From Arcobacter sp. F2176 (GTDB lineage Bacteria; Campylobacterota; Campylobacteria; Campylobacterales; Arcobacteraceae), in contig NZ_PDJV01000020.1 in the NCBI RefSeq assembly GCF_004116465.1, positions 1 to 48,446 on the forward strand: DNA of 48,446 nucleotides, read 5' to 3'. Shown piece by piece: positions 1 to 10,194 of the stretch; position 1 is the stretch's first letter; the number at the start of each line of letters is the position of its first letter. The notes beneath the pieces are model-generated. The model did no database searches, had not been told where the DNA came from, and worked only from the letters and a program-made list of their open reading frames with translations. The position numbers were made by a program, and so were the translations under genes.

Positions 1-464
1 AATATATTAATTTCTTCTTCATTATGTAAGATTTTATCTATTGTAACTACTAATTCACTACGCTGAAAATCATCTTTTCCATATATAAGTGAAGATAAAT
101 TATTAATAGTTTTAAATATTTCTATGTTTTCTTGATCATTATAGCTATACGGAACTCTTGCTTTTCCATCTATAAACCACAACAATGATTCTTTTTCGAG
201 CTCTTCCCTAGTAAGACTACTTTTTATGCTTAATTCTTTACCTGAAGATAACTTCCTAATTTTTTTTTTACCTTTGAGAAAGAGATCTATAGTTTCACTA
301 TCCAATTTAAAATTTAATTTGCTATGAAGAAGTATATTTGAAAGTTTTTGCGCTTTTAAATTCTTAAATGTATACGGAATATCTTTTTCAAAGCTATTGT
401 TTTTATATAAAGAGAGCTTTTTATATAAGTCATTAATTAATTCATATTGGTAGTTATGTAACAT
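1..464 (-). CDS. Unrecognised protein coupled to qatD, C-terminus cut by the window edge
   Basis: An open frame runs from the ATG at 462-464 to the left edge, giving at least 154 residues without a stop. An in-frame TAA at 474-476 with no other ATG between fixes the start. The visible part is soluble, lysine- and leucine-rich and mostly helical in character; I see no signal peptide, membrane segment or catalytic motif and recognise no family. Its start lies 11 bases inside the end of qatD, so translation is probably coupled to it, and it would then be the fifth gene of the qat transcript. It could be an accessory defence protein specific to this Qat variant or an unrelated island gene. Function unknown; that it is a real gene is fairly sure because of the continuous coding pattern and the overlap. 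Confidence 0.7.
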   Translation of the reverse strand, partial: MLHNYQYELINDLYKKLSLYKNNSFEKDIPYTFKNLKAQKLSNILLHSKLNFKLDSETIDLFLKGKKKIRKLSSGKELSIKSSLTREELEKESLLWFIDGKARVPYSYNDQENIEIFKTINNLSSLIYGKDDFQRSELVVTIDKILHNEEEINI

Positions 465-1215
465 GCTTATTTCTTACTTCTCCATAATTTTTGCCTAATA
501 AAGTATTTAAATTTATTTTTAACTGGTAAATAACATCGTCATGATTACATTGCCATATCTTTTCTAATGTATTTACAATATTAATCGCTTCCCACGGATA
601 TATAGTTTTATTTTTAACTGCTGTAAAAGGGCCATCTGACTCTGGTAAGATTCTATTTTTAGGTATTCTGCTTATTAAAGATATCCCTTTTTTACTGTTA
701 CACATTATTGGGTTTATACTAAACCAGCATCCAAGACTAATGGCTTCTTCTAGTTCTTTTATCTTTCCAGAGAACCAATGTAAAATAGGTGTTCCACAGT
801 TTTTATGATTCTTTAATAAAGTTAATACCTCTGATTCTGCTCCACGAGAGTGAATACTAATAAATTTCCCATTTTGTATCTCACACTCTTCTAGTACTCT
901 CTTAAAAATACTTGTTTGGAGAGGTAAAGACTTAGAAAACCTTGTGCTTCCATCAATCCCTACTTCACCAACAAAATTAGTATTTTTAATACAATCTATT
1001 AACAAGTCTACTTCATTAGCCTTAGCTTCAGCAATTTCAGGATGTAACCCTACTGATACATGAATATTTTCATACTTCTCAAAGACTTTTGATGTTGCTA
1101 ACCATGCTTTTGGACTTGTTGTTACTGCTAATGTAAATATATTAATCTTATTAACTTTATCAATTATTTGTAAAGCATCAGGATATAAATCAAGATGTGT
1201 ATGCATATCAATCAT
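454..1215 (-). CDS. qatD: QatD, TatD-family metal-dependent DNase of the Qat anti-phage system
   Basis: A 253-residue TatD-like amidohydrolase-fold nuclease. The N-terminal metal motif HTH is at residues 5-7 (MIDMHTHLD), followed by the family landmarks VGLHPE, GEVGID, the HSRGA histidine, LHWFSG and the C-terminal PESDGPF with the metal aspartate. All expected metal ligands seem present, so it should be an active nuclease. Length is close to the usual 250-260. Its ATG (1213-1215) overlaps the qatC TGA by four bases (ATGA), and its own end overlaps the next gene. Housekeeping TatD proteins look similar, but position as the fourth gene behind KAP ATPase, QatB and a QueC-like protein is the defining Qat arrangement. 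In Qat the nuclease is presumed to be an effector or processing enzyme; the exact role is not shown by sequence. Confidence 0.88.
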   Translation of the reverse strand: MIDMHTHLDLYPDALQIIDKVNKINIFTLAVTTSPKAWLATSKVFEKYENIHVSVGLHPEIAEAKANEVDLLIDCIKNTNFVGEVGIDGSTRFSKSLPLQTSIFKRVLEECEIQNGKFISIHSRGAESEVLTLLKNHKNCGTPILHWFSGKIKELEEAISLGCWFSINPIMCNSKKGISLISRIPKNRILPESDGPFTAVKNKTIYPWEAINIVNTLEKIWQCNHDDVIYQLKINLNTLLGKNYGEVRNKHVT

Positions 1216-2489
1216 AATACTTCATGTTCCTCTAACAATTTACCTAACTCTGTTAAGCCTCTCTCAACTACTCCAACATACTTATGTCTATCATTAGTAG
1301 ATGAGAAAGATAAAGCACCACAAATAATTCGTTCAATACCTTTATTTTGATATTTTACATATGCAGATGCTACAGCGTTGACGTCGTTAGGTCCTTGTGT
1401 TTTACTAAATCCATTATTATTTAAATCTCTATATTTATATATAGTAAAATCTGCTATTCCTGCTTTTAAAAAAGCAGCTCTTCTTACCATACAAGGCACA
1501 CAGCGTCCACAATGAGTACGTCCATGTGTTAAATATTTACCACAGCTTGTTGTACTACATACTAACGATTGAACTAAATCTTGATTTTTACATTCTTGTA
1601 GCATTTCACCTTTTGTTTTGAATTGATAAGGAGTTACTATCTTTGCATTGATTCCTAAGTTATTCCAAATGTCTTGAATTAATCCTAAAAATACTGGATG
1701 TGTTGTTTTAGTACTAAGACTTCCTAGTCTTCCTGAGTTTAATGCAATATTAAGACTAATAAAACCATTCTCAGGTACATATATATCTACTGTACTTGTT
1801 TTCCATTTACTTAATGTAGTTGCTGCTAAAAGAGCATATCCCAAAAATATTATTGAACGACCTCTTGTAGATGATTCATTTCTGCCACTTAAACTTATAG
1901 GATTCTTCCATCGAAAGTGTTGTTGAGATGGTGCTAATTGACGTGTAAATGCTTTTTGTTTTTCAACATCTCCTTTTGCTTCTTGAGAAACAAAACAAGG
2001 CTTAAGTCCATTCGTAATTAAATCAATTGCACCAATTAAACTATCCATTCCACCTGAGAGTAAAGATACGCAATCTACATCAATTTCTATGGGTATAATT
2101 GATGTAGGAGCTTGTACCCCATTATTAACAAATTCAAATTTCCATATATCTCCAGTTAAAAATCTAAAAGCTTTTTCTAGTGATTTATATTGTGATCTCC
2201 ACGGTTCTGGATTACATAAATAGACTTTTAGTTCTATTTGTCTTGTCCAACCATCTTCACTTTTTTCTCTTTCACAACTTAAATCTGAAGCAGCTACGGA
2301 TAAAGCAATTGTCACAAAATCCCAAACTAAATTTGATGGTGCTATGTTATCTCTTTTTAAAGCTCGTAACCAATCATTAGAAATAAAACTTATATTAGGA
2401 CGGCCACTGTTTGAATATAAAGAAAAATATTTCGTATTACTATCTAATATAGTTGGTAGTTCATTTACTGGTGCACAAATTACTTTCAT
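1212..2489 (-). CDS. qatC: QatC, QueC-like PP-loop ATPase of the Qat anti-phage system
   Basis: A 425-residue protein, nearly twice the size of housekeeping QueC (about 230). After an N-terminal extension of about 135 residues specific to QatC-type proteins, the PP-loop SGGMDS appears at residues 145-150. A cysteine cluster near residues 311-333 (C311, C316, C327, C330, C333, with the CGRCVPC stretch) matches the zinc site of QueC. QueC makes the nitrile of preQ0, a 7-deazaguanine, using ATP and ammonia, so QatC is expected to do similar chemistry on a deazapurine. The start shares one base with the qatB stop (TAATG) and the end overlaps qatD by four bases. No queD, queE or tRNA-modification gene is nearby, so tRNA queuosine synthesis is unlikely to be its job. 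Confidence in the Qat assignment is high. Confidence 0.9.
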   Translation of the reverse strand: MKVICAPVNELPTILDSNTKYFSLYSNSGRPNISFISNDWLRALKRDNIAPSNLVWDFVTIALSVAASDLSCEREKSEDGWTRQIELKVYLCNPEPWRSQYKSLEKAFRFLTGDIWKFEFVNNGVQAPTSIIPIEIDVDCVSLLSGGMDSLIGAIDLITNGLKPCFVSQEAKGDVEKQKAFTRQLAPSQQHFRWKNPISLSGRNESSTRGRSIIFLGYALLAATTLSKWKTSTVDIYVPENGFISLNIALNSGRLGSLSTKTTHPVFLGLIQDIWNNLGINAKIVTPYQFKTKGEMLQECKNQDLVQSLVCSTTSCGKYLTHGRTHCGRCVPCMVRRAAFLKAGIADFTIYKYRDLNNNGFSKTQGPNDVNAVASAYVKYQNKGIERIICGALSFSSTNDRHKYVGVVERGLTELGKLLEEHEVL

Positions 2490-3331
2490 TATAGTTCTCC
2501 TTCAAAAACGATAAAAGTGCTTTCTAAGGCTAGTTGAGTTACAGCATTTAATTTACTAATATCAGGATGTTTATCAGAAGATTTATATTGTTGTAACTGA
2601 GCTGAAATTTCAGACTTAAGATAATCCCTCATTTCATCTACTCTTTGAACCATCTCCTTTGGGCTAAGTGTTCTTTCCAATAATTGACCAATATCCAACT
2701 GAAGTCTATTAGAAGCTTCATATGCTAGAAAACCTTCTATTAAATCCCAGCTCTCATCATCTCCTAAATTCAATAATTCTATATCTGGATTTTGTTCTAA
2801 CAAATCTGACATAGCATTAGCCATTGAATCTTTAATGGATTCTTCATCTATTATTCCACCTTCACTTGTAACTCTATCAATAATTGCATCTATTACTTCA
2901 TTAGCACTTGGAGACTTAGACATAAGATTTTGTGCCCAGTCTTTAATATCAGGTAATGTATTGTCTTTAACATCTCTTAAAAATGATACCAATCCAGAAA
3001 CAGAACTTGTAGAAGCTCTCATCCTTTTAGCTACATTAGATGCACCACCCATTCCTTTTTTAGAATAGTGTCCTACTGCTTTTTTAAATGAGTTTTGACT
3101 TCCACTTCTAGCAAATTCACCAAGATTTTTTCTTGCTGTCCCAAACCTTGCTATTGGGGCTAATACTACCGGTTCTTGAATACTAGGTTGTTCTGTAGTT
3201 ATTCCATTCTCTTGTTCAGAACTAGAATCAGAATCTATTGGTACAGTTATATCACTATTAATATCATCAAGCCAAGGTGGATCCATTGATATACCTGATA
3301 CTGGTCCTGTACTAGAAGTTGATGTACCCAT
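2489..3331 (-). CDS. qatB: QatB, partner protein of the Qat anti-phage system
   Basis: A 280-residue protein opening MGTSTSSTGP and soon PPWLDD, the typical QatB beginning. Residues 1-60 are low-complexity, rich in Ser, Thr, Pro, Glu and Gln and likely disordered. Residues 70-120 are basic and glycine-rich (around KKGMGGASN), and the remainder is helical. No enzymatic motif is visible. After methionine removal the first residue would be glycine, which matters because QatC-type QueC homologues have been proposed to attach a deazaguanine to a partner N-terminus; I recall this from recent work and cannot verify it here. The ATG shares one base with the qatA stop and the TAA shares one with the qatC ATG, so the three are tightly coupled. 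Confidence 0.87.
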   Translation of the reverse strand: MGTSTSSTGPVSGISMDPPWLDDINSDITVPIDSDSSSEQENGITTEQPSIQEPVVLAPIARFGTARKNLGEFARSGSQNSFKKAVGHYSKKGMGGASNVAKRMRASTSSVSGLVSFLRDVKDNTLPDIKDWAQNLMSKSPSANEVIDAIIDRVTSEGGIIDEESIKDSMANAMSDLLEQNPDIELLNLGDDESWDLIEGFLAYEASNRLQLDIGQLLERTLSPKEMVQRVDEMRDYLKSEISAQLQQYKSSDKHPDISKLNAVTQLALESTFIVFEGEL

Positions 3332-5125
3332 TACTGTCCTCCAAATTTATGATTAATTGCTTTTTGAGTACTTTTAGGTGTTTCTGTATCTTTTGACCAT
3401 TCCAGGAGAGTACTTTTTGCCCACTCTTCATTAGAGAGTAATGGGACAAAAGAAGCTAATCGTTTTGATGAAGGTATCTCTTCTAATAAATCAGTAAGTG
3501 AACTACCTAAAGAAGGATAAGCTCTAATTACATGTAAAACACCTTGAAGTGAATTACCATTCCATTCTTGAGCTCTTAGTTTTCTCTTTAAGCGAATTAA
3601 AATTTGATTAGCTTCCATTTCATGAAGTGATTTAATTTTAGTTACTAATGTTGCTTGACTTGATTTTACTACAAGCAATGCATCATAAATTTCTTTTGCC
3701 TCTTGAGATAATTCATCAACACTGGAAAGAGAAACAATTGTATCTTTACTAAGGTGTAGTAAAGGTCTTAAATCAACACCTGATAATAAAGGAGTTATTT
3801 GTAACCACTCTTCTATAAATGGATCTTTCCAGCTTTGGTCTGGTGATTCATAATCTTCACCACTTTTAAGTTTTTCTTCTATTTCTATTAAAAAATCTAC
3901 TTTCCCATCATCACTTTCAGAAACTTTTTTAGCAAGAAATTCAAATGCACGTGGAGATGCACAACGCTCAAATAGTTGTAATTTAACAAGCTCTTCAAAA
4001 GCTATTCCTATACCTTGTGTATTCGCAATAGTTTCTCTAATTATTAAATTGTTCAAAAAACGTTTTATTAATCTAGGGTTTCCAGCCAATTGTTCTACAG
4101 TAGCCATAATATGAGCTAATTGTTCTGCTATATCTATTTGCTTTTCAAGTGAATTACTAGACGCACCAAATGCTTCGTTTATAGCCTGTTCTTTCAATCC
4201 CCCTAACCAAGGTTTTTTAACTGTCTCTAAAATTTTTTCTCTTGCTTCATCTAAAACTTCTTGTGTAATAACAGCTTTTTTAACGGCTTGTTCTGCAAAT
4301 AAAAGAATTAAATATGCTTTAACTTCACTTACTCCTAATCTTGGAACTCGTAAAGGGACTTGAATCAATTTATCAAAATAGCTTGTTACTAATTCATCAT
4401 CTATTTGAATTTTAGAAAAATGTGAACGGACAGCACTTCTAATCATTTTTTCATCTGCTGCAATAATAAAAGAAGTTCGTGGTAAAAATAGAAGAAGCCT
4501 CATAGCTTCAAGAGTTGAAATAGCAGTATCTGGCATACAACGATCAAGATCATCTACCAATACTACTAATTTTATATTTAGACCTTCTAGTATTTCTTCA
4601 AAGGCTTGTCTTAAACTTGATATCTCTTTAGGTAAGGATGTTATTTCTTCCTCTTTTAGAATACTTTTCAATTCAGGTTCAAGTCCTTTATATGCTTCTT
4701 GTGCTTTTACTAATTCTTCTTGACTGGGTAAATCAGCACCTTTAAATAAGCCTCCAAAAGCACCAACTGCTGCTCCAATAGGTCCTCCTATTGCCCCTCC
4801 AAGTATTGCTCCTGAGGCTACTGGTGCACCTAATTTTAAAACTTTAAACCTCTGATACAGATTGTAATAAAGCCATTTTAGCATCATCAAAGCCTTGATA
4901 AAGCCATGCATTAAATTCTAGAAATAAGTACTTTTGTTCAGCTTGTTCTCCTTCATTTAATGATTTTCCAATCATTTTAACAAGTGAAGACTTTCCACTC
5001 CCCCAGCTTCCTGAAATACCTATAGATAAAGGTTCATTCCCTGAATCACGAATTAACTGTGCAGCTGTATCTGCTACTACACCAAAATTTAGCAAATCAT
5101 TAGTTGTTTCAATATCATTCCACAC
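3331..5125 (-). CDS. qatA: QatA, KAP-type P-loop ATPase of the Qat system, broken by a +1 frameshift
   Basis: Two frames together make one KAP NTPase. The upstream frame carries Walker A GSWGSGKSS and the family strand around FNAWLYQG, then stops at 4844-4846. The downstream frame continues with a glycine-rich hydrophobic hairpin (GAILGGAIGGPIGAAVG, probably a membrane insertion typical of KAP proteins), Walker B VVLVDDLDRC and a long helical C-terminus. Dropping one T from GTTTAAA at 4844-4850 joins them into 597 residues. I place the start at the GTG at 5123-5125: it gives a VWNDIETTNDLLNF opening like other QatA/KAP proteins and has AAGGA (5133-5137) seven bases upstream; a TTG at 5156-5158 is the alternative. 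The lesion may be a sequencing error, a real mutation or programmed slippage. The TAA shares one base with the qatB ATG. Confidence 0.85.
4844..4850 (-). other. Probable frameshift site in qatA
   Basis: Read on the minus strand this is GGTTTAA with another A following. The 5' frame ends here as GTT TAA. The 3' frame is open across the same region and carries the rest of the KAP domain. A +1 shift at GTT-T, or a reference with one T fewer, restores Val-Lys-Val-Leu and the conserved continuation. The homopolymers are only three bases long, so a simple homopolymer read error is possible but not the obvious explanation. The context resembles a slippery codon before a stop (as in prfB), but no Shine-Dalgarno-like stimulator is clearly placed. 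Confidence 0.7.
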
Positions 5126-5224
5126 ATTTACATCCTTATATTTATTATAATTTTTCAAACCTTATAAAGTTACTATTTGTATACTCATTTACAATACCAT
5201 TAAAAAAGTTATTAAAATTCAATT

Positions 5225-8200
5225 CTAACTAAAGTTAATTTCCTCTTTATATTCATTAATATGCTCTATTAATTTTGTTGTCAAACTGCCATTCTCTAAT
5301 TGTAAATTCTTAATATTACCAACGACAATAAGTTTGCTCTTAGATCTAGAAACAGCAACATTAATAACATTAGGTTGTGCCTTATTAATCATATAAGTAT
5401 CAGAAGTAGATGTATTATTTATACCAACTGTAGTTGAAAAATAAATAGTTTCTTTTTCAGATCCTTGAAATTTATGTACAGTTCCAAAAGTTATCTTATT
5501 ATTCCAACCTTTACTTTTTAATAAATCATACAAAATATTCTCTTGTTTACTATATGGAGTAATAATTCCAATATTTTTTAGCTGTGTATCAATACAAATA
5601 TCTTTTTCTAGCTTTTCTTCAATATCATTAATAATAAGTTGTGCTTCATCTCTGTTATATCTACTTTTACCATCTCTTTTTGCTGTAAATTCATGATTTA
5701 TAGAATCTAAATGAATTTGATTTTCTTCATCTTTTATTCTTGGAATCATATAGTTATTATAGTAGTTCTCATTACAATACTTGATAATACTTTCTTTACA
5801 TCTAAAGTGTTCTAATAACCATAAGTCTCCATCTAAATCAATCTTATTCATTGGATTTTTTATGGATACAGCTTTATTTGCAATTTTCATCGCATTTGAA
5901 GTATTAATTGCATAATAGTCTAAAACTCTTTGTTTATCTTCATTATTATCAAAATATCTATTAATCAAATAGTCATATATTCTTTTATTTTCAGAAAATG
6001 GATAAACGGGCTCTATTTGCTTTTCATCTCCAAATAAGAAAACCTTTTTTCCAGCTAGTAAATTAATCATATATGGAGAAAGAATCATCCCCGCTTCATC
6101 AACAAAAAGATGTTCTATTAAAGATTCAGGGACTGTATTGTCATCATTTATTGCAAACATTGTTCCAAAAGAATGACATGTAGTATTTAATAAGGGAAAT
6201 AATACACTACATCTTTTTAATATAGAAAGCTTATCTGAACTTATAGTCTTGCTTCCTTGTGCAACATTCCAATATTTTGGGTTGTCCTCATTTACTCTTA
6301 ACATAAATGTTGTATTATCGATGGTTACATTCTTAAAAGTAATAATTGTTACTACTTCACTTTGAGTTAGTGGTCTGCCAATTTTTTTAACAGTATTATT
6401 TATAAAGGTTGAACCACAACTAGAACAATAATATTCTATTTTATCATCATTTCTATTTGCTCGTTTTAGGTCTCTTTTCCCACATTTATGATTAAAACAT
6501 CTATTAACTTTATTCTCTTTTACAATTTCTAATTCTCTTATTACATCATAAAGTAATAATCCCTCTAAGATATGTAATGAATAAAACATAGCTTTTGTTC
6601 TTAGATTAAAATCACTACCTACAAAGTCTTTTTCTAATCGTAGAGAAAATTCATCATAAAACTCTATATCAATATTTGAAAAACTTTCTACTAGTTTTTT
6701 GAATGCAATAATTTTTTTATATGCCTCTTTATGATTGAGATTATGGAGTTGAAATAAAACTGTTGCTTCATCATATTTATTTTCATAATCCTGTATCTTT
6801 TTTATAAAATCATTTCTTATAGTTTCAGAACTTTTTTCAGACTGTTCAATAATTGTATTAGTAATAATATTTTTTTCGTCCATTAATCTTTTTGACTTAA
6901 CTTTATAAACTTTTGATTCATTATCAATCTTAACTTCAATATCTTCCATAATCTTTTTTACTTGACTATCATAATTTTGTGAAACATCTTCAAGTTGTTT
7001 ATCTTTTTCTTTTGTGAAAATATTTTTTATCTTTGGTATAAAAGAGTCAAATCTCTTTAAGATTTTATCTGTTTCCTTATCTCTTTTTTCTTTTAGTTTG
7101 TTTAGTCCTTCTTCTAATGAAGTACTAAAAATACCAACTTTTTTAGTAAATTCATTAGATAAATTGTCTATTTGTTCTTCTAAATATTTACAGTCTTCAC
7201 TAATGCTATTATCACTATCCTCTTTAATCTTTTTTATCGCACGTTCTGAGTCTTCATGCAAAGAATCAATTTTATTCTGAATTGAATTATATTTTTTAAA
7301 AAAAAGATTTATTTTAGTATTTAAGTGATTACAATAACTATCAAACTGTATTCTATTTTGTATTATGAAATCTTCGCTATTTTGAAACCGTTGAATTTGA
7401 GATAAAAGTGCTTTAAATATTTTATAATTATTATTTATAAAAAAATTATCGGCTTTTTCCTCTATTTGTGATTGAATAGTATTTAGTTCCAAAAATAAAT
7501 ACTCTAAAGCAAGCTCAAGAGATTGTTTCCTAAATTCTAAAATATTTTCCTTAGGAATTTTAAAACCTAAATCAAGTATGTTAAAATTCTCTAAAAATTT
7601 AGATATTATATTAATATTATCTGAAGCAACTGCATCTATAATTGATGATAAGTTATCCCAACTTATTACTGTTTCCTTAGGATTATCAATATTTACATTT
7701 CCCCAGCTCTTAAATAATGGAGAATAAATATTAGCTTCGTTTATCGTTATTGTTTTAAATTTATTATCTTCATAATAACTTATTGGAGCATTAATCCATC
7801 TTTTATATAATACTTTAGAAGTATCATCAATATCACCTCTTCCCTTTATCTTTTCAAGAACTTCATTTATACCAGATGCAATATTCTCAAGGGCTTTATT
7901 ATTAGTTGAGAATGAAATTATTGGTGTAGAAAAATTTATATCACCTGTTTTCAAAAAATCACTATAAGTTCTTATTGCATTACTAACAATAATATCTCCA
8001 ATAATTGCTCTTAGTAATGATGTTTTACCTGTACCGGGAGGACCATTTACTGGTATAACATTCAAGTGTGATTTACATGCATTTAAACAATACTTTTGTG
8101 ATATTGTTAAATCATGCTCTTCTGTTAATGCGCCTAAATGACTTCTCGATAATTCAATAATTTTATCATAGTCTAAAAGAAGTTCTTTTTTTAAATCTCT

Positions 8201-9130
8201 ATCCTTAATATCTAAAGATACAGGTGAATATTTTTCTTCAGAACCTGATAAGAAATAATATAAAAGATTAGAATCATTAAAAGAATTGTCTTTTATATTT
8301 TGTTCAAAAGATTCATATGTTTTTAAAAGTCCATTAATATTTGACTTATCATCTTGATTAGACTCAACTTTAACTATAATATGAGGGTTAAACATCAATT
8401 TTATTTTCTTTTCAACAATATCATCTTTTTCTTTTGATATTTGTTGCTCTTTATATAATTTTTCAAAAGAGTAAACTAACCCTTTATTTAACCTCTCAAA
8501 ATCACATTTTTCAAGAGGTAGATTTTCATCAAGCCAAGTATTTATTGCCTTTATTAAAATATCCTTCATTTGTTCAAAATTATCAATCCTAAGTCCTCTA
8601 TTTTCTCTCTCAAGTTCATTAAGTAACTTCGATGTTAAATCATGATCAACTAATTCGAATGGTTCTAATATTAATAAAGGATTAAATATTAATTCTTCAC
8701 CATTAAAAATATTTTCATCAAAGTTATTATTTTCATAGTTTTCAATGATTTTTGAAATATTATCTAAAGACTGAACTTTTATAAAAAAAGGATTAATATA
8801 AAAATCATTAATTTGAAGCATTGCCGGAGAATAATATAATGTAAATTCATCTTGAAATTCTTTTTTATTCTTTTTACTACTATTTAATTTATCAAGTAGC
8901 ATAAAACAATATTCTTTTGCTAACTCAAATGTATACTCATCTTTAATACCAAATATTAAATATTCAAGATTATCTTTTAAATCACTGTTAGATTGAATAA
9001 AATATTCTTTTTTAAATTTATGTTTAATTAACTCTGTAACTTCTAAAGTTCTTTTATAATAATTTATAAGATCGATAAAAAAAGATTGTTCATTTTTCAA
9101 TAAAATTCCTATACAATAATATCTAATCAT
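5225..9130 (-). CDS. Large SF1 (Upf1/Dna2-like) helicase with coiled coil and zinc-binding segment
   Basis: A 1301-residue protein. About 350 unrecognised N-terminal residues are followed by Walker A GPPGTGKTS near residue 360. A long, highly charged lysine/glutamate insertion of roughly 250 residues (about 560-790) looks like an extended coiled coil. Near 877-905 four cysteines (CFNHKC then CSSC) suggest a zinc ribbon. The second helicase half has motif II VDEAGMI (about 1010), motif III GDEKQIEPVYP, ITPYSKQ, HKFQGSE and the motif VI-like NVAVSRSKSKL (about 1265). It is thus a complete SF1B-type ATPase split by the insertion, related to the AAA_11/AAA_12 (Dna2/Nam7) families common in defence islands. 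The stop is about 100 bases upstream of the qatA start on the same strand, so joint transcription is possible. Whether it is part of Qat, or a stand-alone defence gene, is unknown. Confidence 0.82.
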   Translation of the reverse strand: MIRYYCIGILLKNEQSFFIDLINYYKRTLEVTELIKHKFKKEYFIQSNSDLKDNLEYLIFGIKDEYTFELAKEYCFMLLDKLNSSKKNKKEFQDEFTLYYSPAMLQINDFYINPFFIKVQSLDNISKIIENYENNNFDENIFNGEELIFNPLLILEPFELVDHDLTSKLLNELERENRGLRIDNFEQMKDILIKAINTWLDENLPLEKCDFERLNKGLVYSFEKLYKEQQISKEKDDIVEKKIKLMFNPHIIVKVESNQDDKSNINGLLKTYESFEQNIKDNSFNDSNLLYYFLSGSEEKYSPVSLDIKDRDLKKELLLDYDKIIELSRSHLGALTEEHDLTISQKYCLNACKSHLNVIPVNGPPGTGKTSLLRAIIGDIIVSNAIRTYSDFLKTGDINFSTPIISFSTNNKALENIASGINEVLEKIKGRGDIDDTSKVLYKRWINAPISYYEDNKFKTITINEANIYSPLFKSWGNVNIDNPKETVISWDNLSSIIDAVASDNINIISKFLENFNILDLGFKIPKENILEFRKQSLELALEYLFLELNTIQSQIEEKADNFFINNNYKIFKALLSQIQRFQNSEDFIIQNRIQFDSYCNHLNTKINLFFKKYNSIQNKIDSLHEDSERAIKKIKEDSDNSISEDCKYLEEQIDNLSNEFTKKVGIFSTSLEEGLNKLKEKRDKETDKILKRFDSFIPKIKNIFTKEKDKQLEDVSQNYDSQVKKIMEDIEVKIDNESKVYKVKSKRLMDEKNIITNTIIEQSEKSSETIRNDFIKKIQDYENKYDEATVLFQLHNLNHKEAYKKIIAFKKLVESFSNIDIEFYDEFSLRLEKDFVGSDFNLRTKAMFYSLHILEGLLLYDVIRELEIVKENKVNRCFNHKCGKRDLKRANRNDDKIEYYCSSCGSTFINNTVKKIGRPLTQSEVVTIITFKNVTIDNTTFMLRVNEDNPKYWNVAQGSKTISSDKLSILKRCSVLFPLLNTTCHSFGTMFAINDDNTVPESLIEHLFVDEAGMILSPYMINLLAGKKVFLFGDEKQIEPVYPFSENKRIYDYLINRYFDNNEDKQRVLDYYAINTSNAMKIANKAVSIKNPMNKIDLDGDLWLLEHFRCKESIIKYCNENYYNNYMIPRIKDEENQIHLDSINHEFTAKRDGKSRYNRDEAQLIINDIEEKLEKDICIDTQLKNIGIITPYSKQENILYDLLKSKGWNNKITFGTVHKFQGSEKETIYFSTTVGINNTSTSDTYMINKAQPNVINVAVSRSKSKLIVVGNIKNLQLENGSLTTKLIEHINEYKEEINFS

Positions 9131-9524: not shown

Positions 9525-9827
9525 ATGAAAAAAGAAGAAATAAATAAAACAAACATTTTAAATTATTTGAAAGAACATTATATTGAGTTTAAAAATAAAT
9601 ATGATGTAGAACAAATAGGACTATTTGGAAGCTACGCAAGAAATGATGCGTCAAAAGATAGTGACATTGATATTTATGTAAAAATGAAACCATCGCTATT
9701 TGATTTAATTGCAATTAAAGAGCAAATAGAAAATGATTTAAATAAAAAAGTTGATATTATAAGAGAACATAAAAATATAAAACCTCTTTTTTTAGAAATG
9801 ATTAAAAAAGATATTATATATGTCTAA
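9525..9827 (+). CDS. mntA: MntA-type nucleotidyltransferase antitoxin
   Basis: A 100-residue minimal nucleotidyltransferase. The motif GSX10DXD is exact: GS at residues 35-36 (LFGSYARN) and DID at 47-49. In type VII toxin-antitoxin pairs MntA transfers AMP from ATP to a tyrosine of the HEPN toxin HepT and so silences it. The length (about 100) fits the family, and all catalytic residues are present. The stop lies eight bases inside the start of hepT, giving translational coupling, with the antitoxin first as expected. There is no ribosome site before the ATG, only a TATAAT. Pairs of this kind are frequent on genomic islands and defence islands. Confidence 0.92.
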   Translation: MKKEEINKTNILNYLKEHYIEFKNKYDVEQIGLFGSYARNDASKDSDIDIYVKMKPSLFDLIAIKEQIENDLNKKVDIIREHKNIKPLFLEMIKKDIIYV

Positions 9828-10194
9828 CCAAACAGAAATGATATTGTCTACTCTTGATGATATTATTTATTCTCTAAAATTAATCCAAAAAAGGTCTAAA
9901 AATATAAATTCTAGTGACGACTTTATAAAAGATGAAGATGGTATTGAAAAACTTGATAGTATCTCAATGAGATTAGTAGCTATTGGAGAAGGATTTAAAA
10001 ATATAGATAAATTATCTAACACTCTACTAATTGATTATCCAACTATTCCATGGAAACAAGTCAAAGGAATAAGAGATATTTTATCTCATCACTATTTTGA
10101 TTTAGATGCAGAGGTAATTTTTAATATTTGTAAAAATGAATTAAACGAATTATTAGATATAAGTTTGCAGATACAAAAAGACTTAAGAAAATAA
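9820..10194 (+). CDS. hepT: HepT-type HEPN toxin (DUF86)
   Basis: A 124-residue all-helical HEPN protein with the RNase motif RX4HXY intact: R85, H90 and Y92 in RDILSHHYF. HepT proteins cleave RNA, with mRNA or tRNA targets reported, and are blocked when MntA AMPylates the motif tyrosine. Both partners keep their active residues here, so the pair looks functional. The gene overlaps mntA by eight bases. It could serve island maintenance or abortive phage defence next to Qat; the sequence does not distinguish these. HEPN/MNT pairs are sometimes annotated as DUF86 protein plus nucleotidyltransferase. Confidence 0.92.
   Translation: MSNQTEMILSTLDDIIYSLKLIQKRSKNINSSDDFIKDEDGIEKLDSISMRLVAIGEGFKNIDKLSNTLLIDYPTIPWKQVKGIRDILSHHYFDLDAEVIFNICKNELNELLDISLQIQKDLRK

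Follow-up and report, generated by a model that had tools for sequence, protein, structure and literature searches.

The helicase gene and its surroundings

The window analysed here is the whole 48,446-nucleotide contig NZ_PDJV01000020.1 of Arcobacter sp. F2176. It encodes a helicase of 1301 residues, followed on the same strand by qatABCD and flanked on the other side by a divergent nucleotidyltransferase/HEPN gene pair (Table 1). This pair is type VII toxin–antitoxin-like and shares 76% DNA identity with a Sulfurimonas aquatica plasmid. The helicase reading frame is single and unbroken over 1301 codons, with an ATG start, and since relatives of approximately 1310 residues and about 30% identity exist, it is considered to be a real gene.

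The frame of qatA is broken. Here, QatA residues 1–91 are in one frame, and the match resumes in a second frame from approximately position 107 of the profile; a short piece is therefore missing together with the loss of frame. The frameshift may be an artefact of assembly, the genome being a draft of 98 contigs; unless it is, the Qat system of the window may be inactive. The earlier note placed the end of the helicase gene about 100 bases before qatA on the same strand, which is correct if the likely start of qatA, GTG at 5125, is used.

To the right of the helicase, genes for a GGDEF protein and RhlE are syntenic with those of two congeners. At the same site, one congener (G001) has a CBASS-type phospholipase gene (locus L143, 1737–2684) and a HipA-like gene, and the other has metabolic genes. 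The site is a hotspot of changing defence cargo. Its left side lies beyond the window, as the contig begins at base 1.

Table 1. Features of the helicase gene and its neighbours in the window.
Feature	Coordinates	Strand	Remarks
Helicase gene, UPF1/MkoC-type SF1, 1301 aa, without PLD nuclease	5225..9130	(-)	
N-terminal region, residues 1–250	8381..9130	(-)	no recognised domain; weakly conserved in clade
Pre-motor region common to MkoC, residues 251–340	8111..8380	(-)	weak basis
Start of RecA1, residues 341–470, Q motif and Walker A	7721..8110	(-)	Walker A (363–370) at 8021–8044
Long antiparallel helical hairpin/coiled coil inside RecA1, residues 527–871	6518..7552	(-)	from composition and AlphaFold2; absent from short-form homologues
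Zinc-ribbon-like C-x4-C-x18-C-x2-C, residues 878–905	6416..6499	(-)	
Remaining RecA1 (Walker B 1011–1014) and RecA2, residues 970–1295	5246..6223	(-)	best MkoC match
Gap from helicase stop to likely qatA GTG start, 99 bases	5126..5224	(-)	no terminator-like site found
qatA, frame broken	3331..5125	(-)	N part in ORF 4844–5158 (QatA 1–91), rest in ORF 3331–4911
qatB, qatC, qatD	454..3331	(-)	qatB 2489–3331, qatC 1212–2489, qatD 454–1215
MntA-like nucleotidyltransferase and HepT-like HEPN RNase pair	9525..10194	(+)	divergent from helicase

Motor domains

The motor can be defined by its motifs: a Walker A box of sequence GPPGTGKT, a Walker B box of sequence DEAG, and the equally intact SF1 motifs GDEKQ (residues 1034–1038), TVHKFQGSE (from 1217) and NVAVSR (1257–1262). 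Pfam recognises AAA_11 at residues 342–421 (4e-6) and AAA_12 at 1108–1273 (5e-21). AlphaFold2 was used to model residues 331–1301 from 14 sequences, which resulted in a model of modest confidence (mean pLDDT 60, pTM 0.55) in which the RecA cores are mostly at pLDDT 70–90. Structure comparison of this model returned senataxin, DNA2, UPF1, IGHMBP2 and ZNFX1; the TM-scores are low, since the insertion takes up a large share of the model. Searching PDB sequences by profile led to the same result. In addition, structure matches among viral proteins are generic SF1 helicases, and a search of PHROGs matched the helicase core only. The motifs, the AAA_11/AAA_12 domains and the fold matches identify a UPF1-like SF1 helicase, which bears out the earlier note on this point. 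The protein shares motor fold and motifs with UPF1, SMUBP2, senataxin, DNA2 and ZNFX1 but differs from these in its insertion, N-terminus and genetic context.

The insertion, the zinc site and the N-terminus

The two Walker boxes are separated by 648 residues. Measured in the same way, this distance is approximately 150–175 residues in short UPF1-like helicases and MkoA, and approximately 390–400 in most MkoC proteins that carry a PLD nuclease. Much of the additional sequence is highly charged, as residues 560–840 are 36% charged and 1.4% proline plus glycine, compared with 22–32% and 4–8% in the rest of the protein. AlphaFold2 predicts three helices here (527–704, 710–819 and 822–871; mostly pLDDT 45–63), followed by the four-cysteine site. 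A charged coiled coil splitting the motor had been noticed before at a size of about 250 residues; the coiled coil stands, and the helical insertion is larger, at approximately 345 residues.

The four-cysteine segment, also seen previously, is well founded: C878, C883, C902 and C905 are invariant in eight of the eight relatives aligned. In the homologue from Hydrogenimonas (L012), which is on a plasmid, one cysteine of the zinc site is replaced by histidine (HxxC).

Of the approximately 350 N-terminal residues thought to be without known counterpart, only the first 250 remain so. Residues 252–340 weakly resemble the pre-motor region of MkoC (E 0.002, probability 13%). Residues 1–250 cannot be assigned to any domain, since an AlphaFold2 model of residues 1–560 reached a pLDDT of only 40, and nothing credible was found when eight N-termini were compared with Pfam or when PDB was searched by profile.

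Kinship to MkoC

The best named match of the helicase in PADLOC is MkoC of Mokosh type II (E 2e-85), followed at a distance by MkoA (6.5e-28). MkoC consists of an N-terminal RNA helicase and a C-terminal PLD nuclease (PMC11672841, PMC10013915). The match stops at position 963 of the 1136 in the MkoC profile, which is where the helicase itself ends, so that the PLD part is missing. By comparison, a PLD-bearing MkoC (P0006) matches positions 6–1135, and a control protein from a Hymenobacter plasmid spans the whole profile and has an HKD-like motif. Consistent with this, Pfam finds no PLD in the helicase.

Relatives were gathered from Campylobacterota genomes, plasmids, bacterial and archaeal species genomes, and viral contigs. 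The scans were pattern-based, with 80 loci among the matches listed, and homologue numbers are therefore lower bounds. A scan of the bacterial and archaeal species genomes with the single protein gave no relative; one based on an alignment did find some. At least 13 helicases form a clade, referred to here as the zinc clade, with 12 from Campylobacterota and one from a Burkholderiales metagenome-assembled genome (MAG; L023). The zinc site occupies an equivalent position in every one of the 13, and none has a fused PLD or an HKD motif. In a tree of the motor domains, the zinc clade is sister to the PLD-bearing MkoC proteins; the joint group is supported at 100/99, and the zinc clade alone moderately, at 76/71. 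Within it, a long-form branch with the coiled coil (97/94) has eight members, including the window helicase and one fragment at a contig end, and a short-form branch without the coiled coil (100/100) has five. Thus, the coiled coil is optional within the clade and the zinc site is kept throughout. A small upstream partner common to the clade helicases was sought and not found.

Judged by sequence, the helicase belongs to the MkoC branch of the UPF1/COG1112-type SF1 helicases. The domain layout can therefore be named, contrary to the earlier note, and a coiled-coil insertion following Walker A has already been described for CnuH (PMC11090510). The helicase has in common with Mokosh type II the motor, the pre-motor region, an enlarged insertion between the Walker boxes, a single-gene architecture and a defence-island setting. 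It differs from MkoC in the missing PLD nuclease, in the zinc ribbon and in about 250 extra coiled-coil residues: its best score is to MkoC and yet the C-terminal PLD is not there. Mokosh type I, which comprises the kinase-helicase MkoA and the PLD protein MkoB, also has a UPF1-type motor and directly adjoins a clade member in locus L021. The window helicase, however, has no kinase domain by Pfam, its match to MkoA is the weaker one, and no MkoB-like PLD protein was matched elsewhere in the source genome, so that it is not part of a type I system either.

Several clade members show features of their own. The short forms in L022 (8282–11605), L027 (9275–12697), L028 (1380–4787) and L029 (2–2965) have extra CxxC zinc-ribbon motifs at the C-terminus. 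The copy in L013 (7068–10990) is split by frameshifts or stops, with a near-identical intact copy in L021, and the copy in L032 (4320–7755) is similarly fragmented by frameshifts or stops.

Distribution and genetic context

The family is rare and sporadic, being present in at least four of 397 Campylobacterota genomes, which is not the broad presence expected of a housekeeping helicase. Several relatives are carried by plasmids or conjugative elements and adjoin defence genes. In L021, the helicase is directly beside a DUF2779 gene, a gene for a PLD protein resembling MkoB, and a gene for the kinase-helicase MkoA. On plasmid pM830MA, the order is sbcD-sbcC-NACHT-DUF2779-helicase-dgt, the helicase being split in two frames. 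In L023, the order is sbcD-sbcC-helicase, with 2 bases separating sbcC from the helicase. In L015, the helicase is accompanied by conjugation genes together with genes for a tyrosine integrase and an AAA_21 protein; a type I restriction subunit is nearby in L028, and Abi_2 in L030. As the family is rare, often mobile and often located beside defence genes, it is not a housekeeping one. Two of the short forms are solitary within regions of metabolic genes, one between cobalamin genes (L027) and the other among genes for surface-sugar biosynthesis (L022), a placement that is at best neutral for a role in defence.

A dedicated system of SbcDC, the DUF2779 protein and the helicase was considered and given less weight, as the same genes also flank qatABCD in L132. 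For this reason, the SbcDC/DUF2779 pair may mark a plasmid hotspot in Arcobacteraceae. L132 (1–10979) and L119 (10823–23882) both show the arrangement sbcD-sbcC, variable defence cargo (qatABCD, or a NACHT ATPase with the helicase) and a DUF2779 gene. The only independent link between SbcDC and the helicase is in L023, which is a MAG. A search of the source genome with the SbcC of L023 gave no match, at a divergence too great for this to be decisive, and DUF2779 occurs there once, on another contig.

Proposed function and alternatives

The reading we favour, with a probability of roughly 0.6, is that the helicase is a zinc-ribbon relative of MkoC that lacks the PLD nuclease, an SF1B motor of the UPF1/SMUBP2/DNA2 type, and an accessory, probably anti-phage, gene in a defence hotspot. 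Its substrate and polarity are inferred. On sequence grounds, it probably acts in defence alone or with a borrowed nuclease. This is compatible with the stand-alone defence helicase put forward in the earlier note, given the nearest named family, the sporadic distribution, and the location of relatives on mobile elements or beside defence genes. No membership of a housekeeping family free of defence linkage, the result that the note named as fatal to its proposal, was found.

In such a protein, the two RecA domains would translocate along single-stranded RNA or DNA, and dimerisation, substrate recognition or partner docking could be the task of the helical hairpin and zinc ribbon within RecA1. 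Harm to the invader might come from the motor itself, which would remodel invader transcripts or replication intermediates. Alternatively, it might come from a nuclease supplied in trans, for which the neighbours seen elsewhere (SbcD/SbcC, the DUF2779 protein and the MkoB-like PLD protein) are candidates. It is doubtful, though conceivable, that the clade represents a defence helicase class of its own, one that lost or never had a fused PLD and whose coiled-coil arm and zinc ribbon bring in a nuclease in trans; at some loci this would be the Mre11-Rad50-like SbcD-SbcC of the same operon.

The current view of Mokosh is of a helicase plus a PLD nuclease. A maintained, nuclease-less sister clade that has its own zinc site and coiled coil would show that an MkoC-type motor can be coupled to different effectors or can work by itself; the zinc clade offers a direct route to asking what such a motor senses. 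In practical terms, a defence finder that relies on the MkoC score alone may assign proteins without PLD to Mokosh type II when the effector is missing.

Four other explanations were weighed against that of a PLD-less defence helicase. The protein could be an accessory helicase that assists plasmids and conjugative elements in their replication, repair or transfer and plays no part against phages. The relatives on plasmids or in tra loci, the two loci adjoined by SbcDC and the two solitary short forms fit this idea, which is nevertheless unlikely, as the closest family with a name is that of a defence protein, unrelated defence systems often lie next to the gene, and few plasmids carry a close relative.

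Slightly less probable is that the helicase is a true Mokosh type II MkoC, now a decaying remnant, whose PLD was lost in its own lineage. The MkoC match across motor and pre-motor region, the absence of the PLD and the lack of an MkoB-like protein elsewhere in the genome are what such a loss would leave, but the motor motifs are intact, and the PLD is missing from all 13 clade members while the zinc site is kept. This pattern indicates an old, maintained architecture and not a recent loss.

It is similarly improbable that the protein comes from a CoCoNuT (coiled-coil McrBC) system as its CnuH-type helicase, with the partners lost or displaced. CnuH, of CoCoNuT types II and III and known here by its description, combines a UPF1-like SF1 motor with a large helical insertion of coiled-coil type that follows Walker A (PMC11090510), as does the window helicase. 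Where the two differ is in the company they keep: McrB and McrC (CnuB/CnuC), CnuE (a wHTH-nuclease) and TerY-P are absent among the window proteins scanned, and no such partners were recognised beside the relatives scanned. On the basis of modelling, the CoCoNuT authors suggested that the coiled coil of CnuH may touch the wHTH domain of CnuE, the nuclease that partners it (PMC11090510), and by analogy it is plausible that the arm of the window helicase contacts a nuclease partner, although none was recognised among the window proteins scanned.

The proximity to qat was addressed by locating qatC with the PADLOC QatC profile across the 397 Campylobacterota genomes. It is present in ten, and only the genome of the window has both qatC and the helicase; none of the other nine qat loci has a helicase relative. 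The GC content of the qat genes is mostly 31–34%, and that of the helicase 24–26%. Because of these differences, and because the site is a defence hotspot, the adjacency is regarded as co-location, and the Qat-associated helicase envisaged in the earlier note is not supported. That the helicase is a fifth Qat component, co-transcribed with qatABCD and acting with the ATPase QatA and the TatD nuclease QatD, which would supply the missing nuclease, is thus highly improbable despite the shared strand and the short gap in which no terminator-like site was found, and the frameshift in qatA beside an intact helicase also speaks against it.

A separate operon with an MkoA-like helicase lies near the clade helicase in L025 (1637–8871). 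Its five genes encode the MkoA-like helicase, proteins of 467 and 575 residues with no Pfam match, a 128-residue protein, and a protein resembling radical-SAM activases; it is possibly an undescribed defence system.
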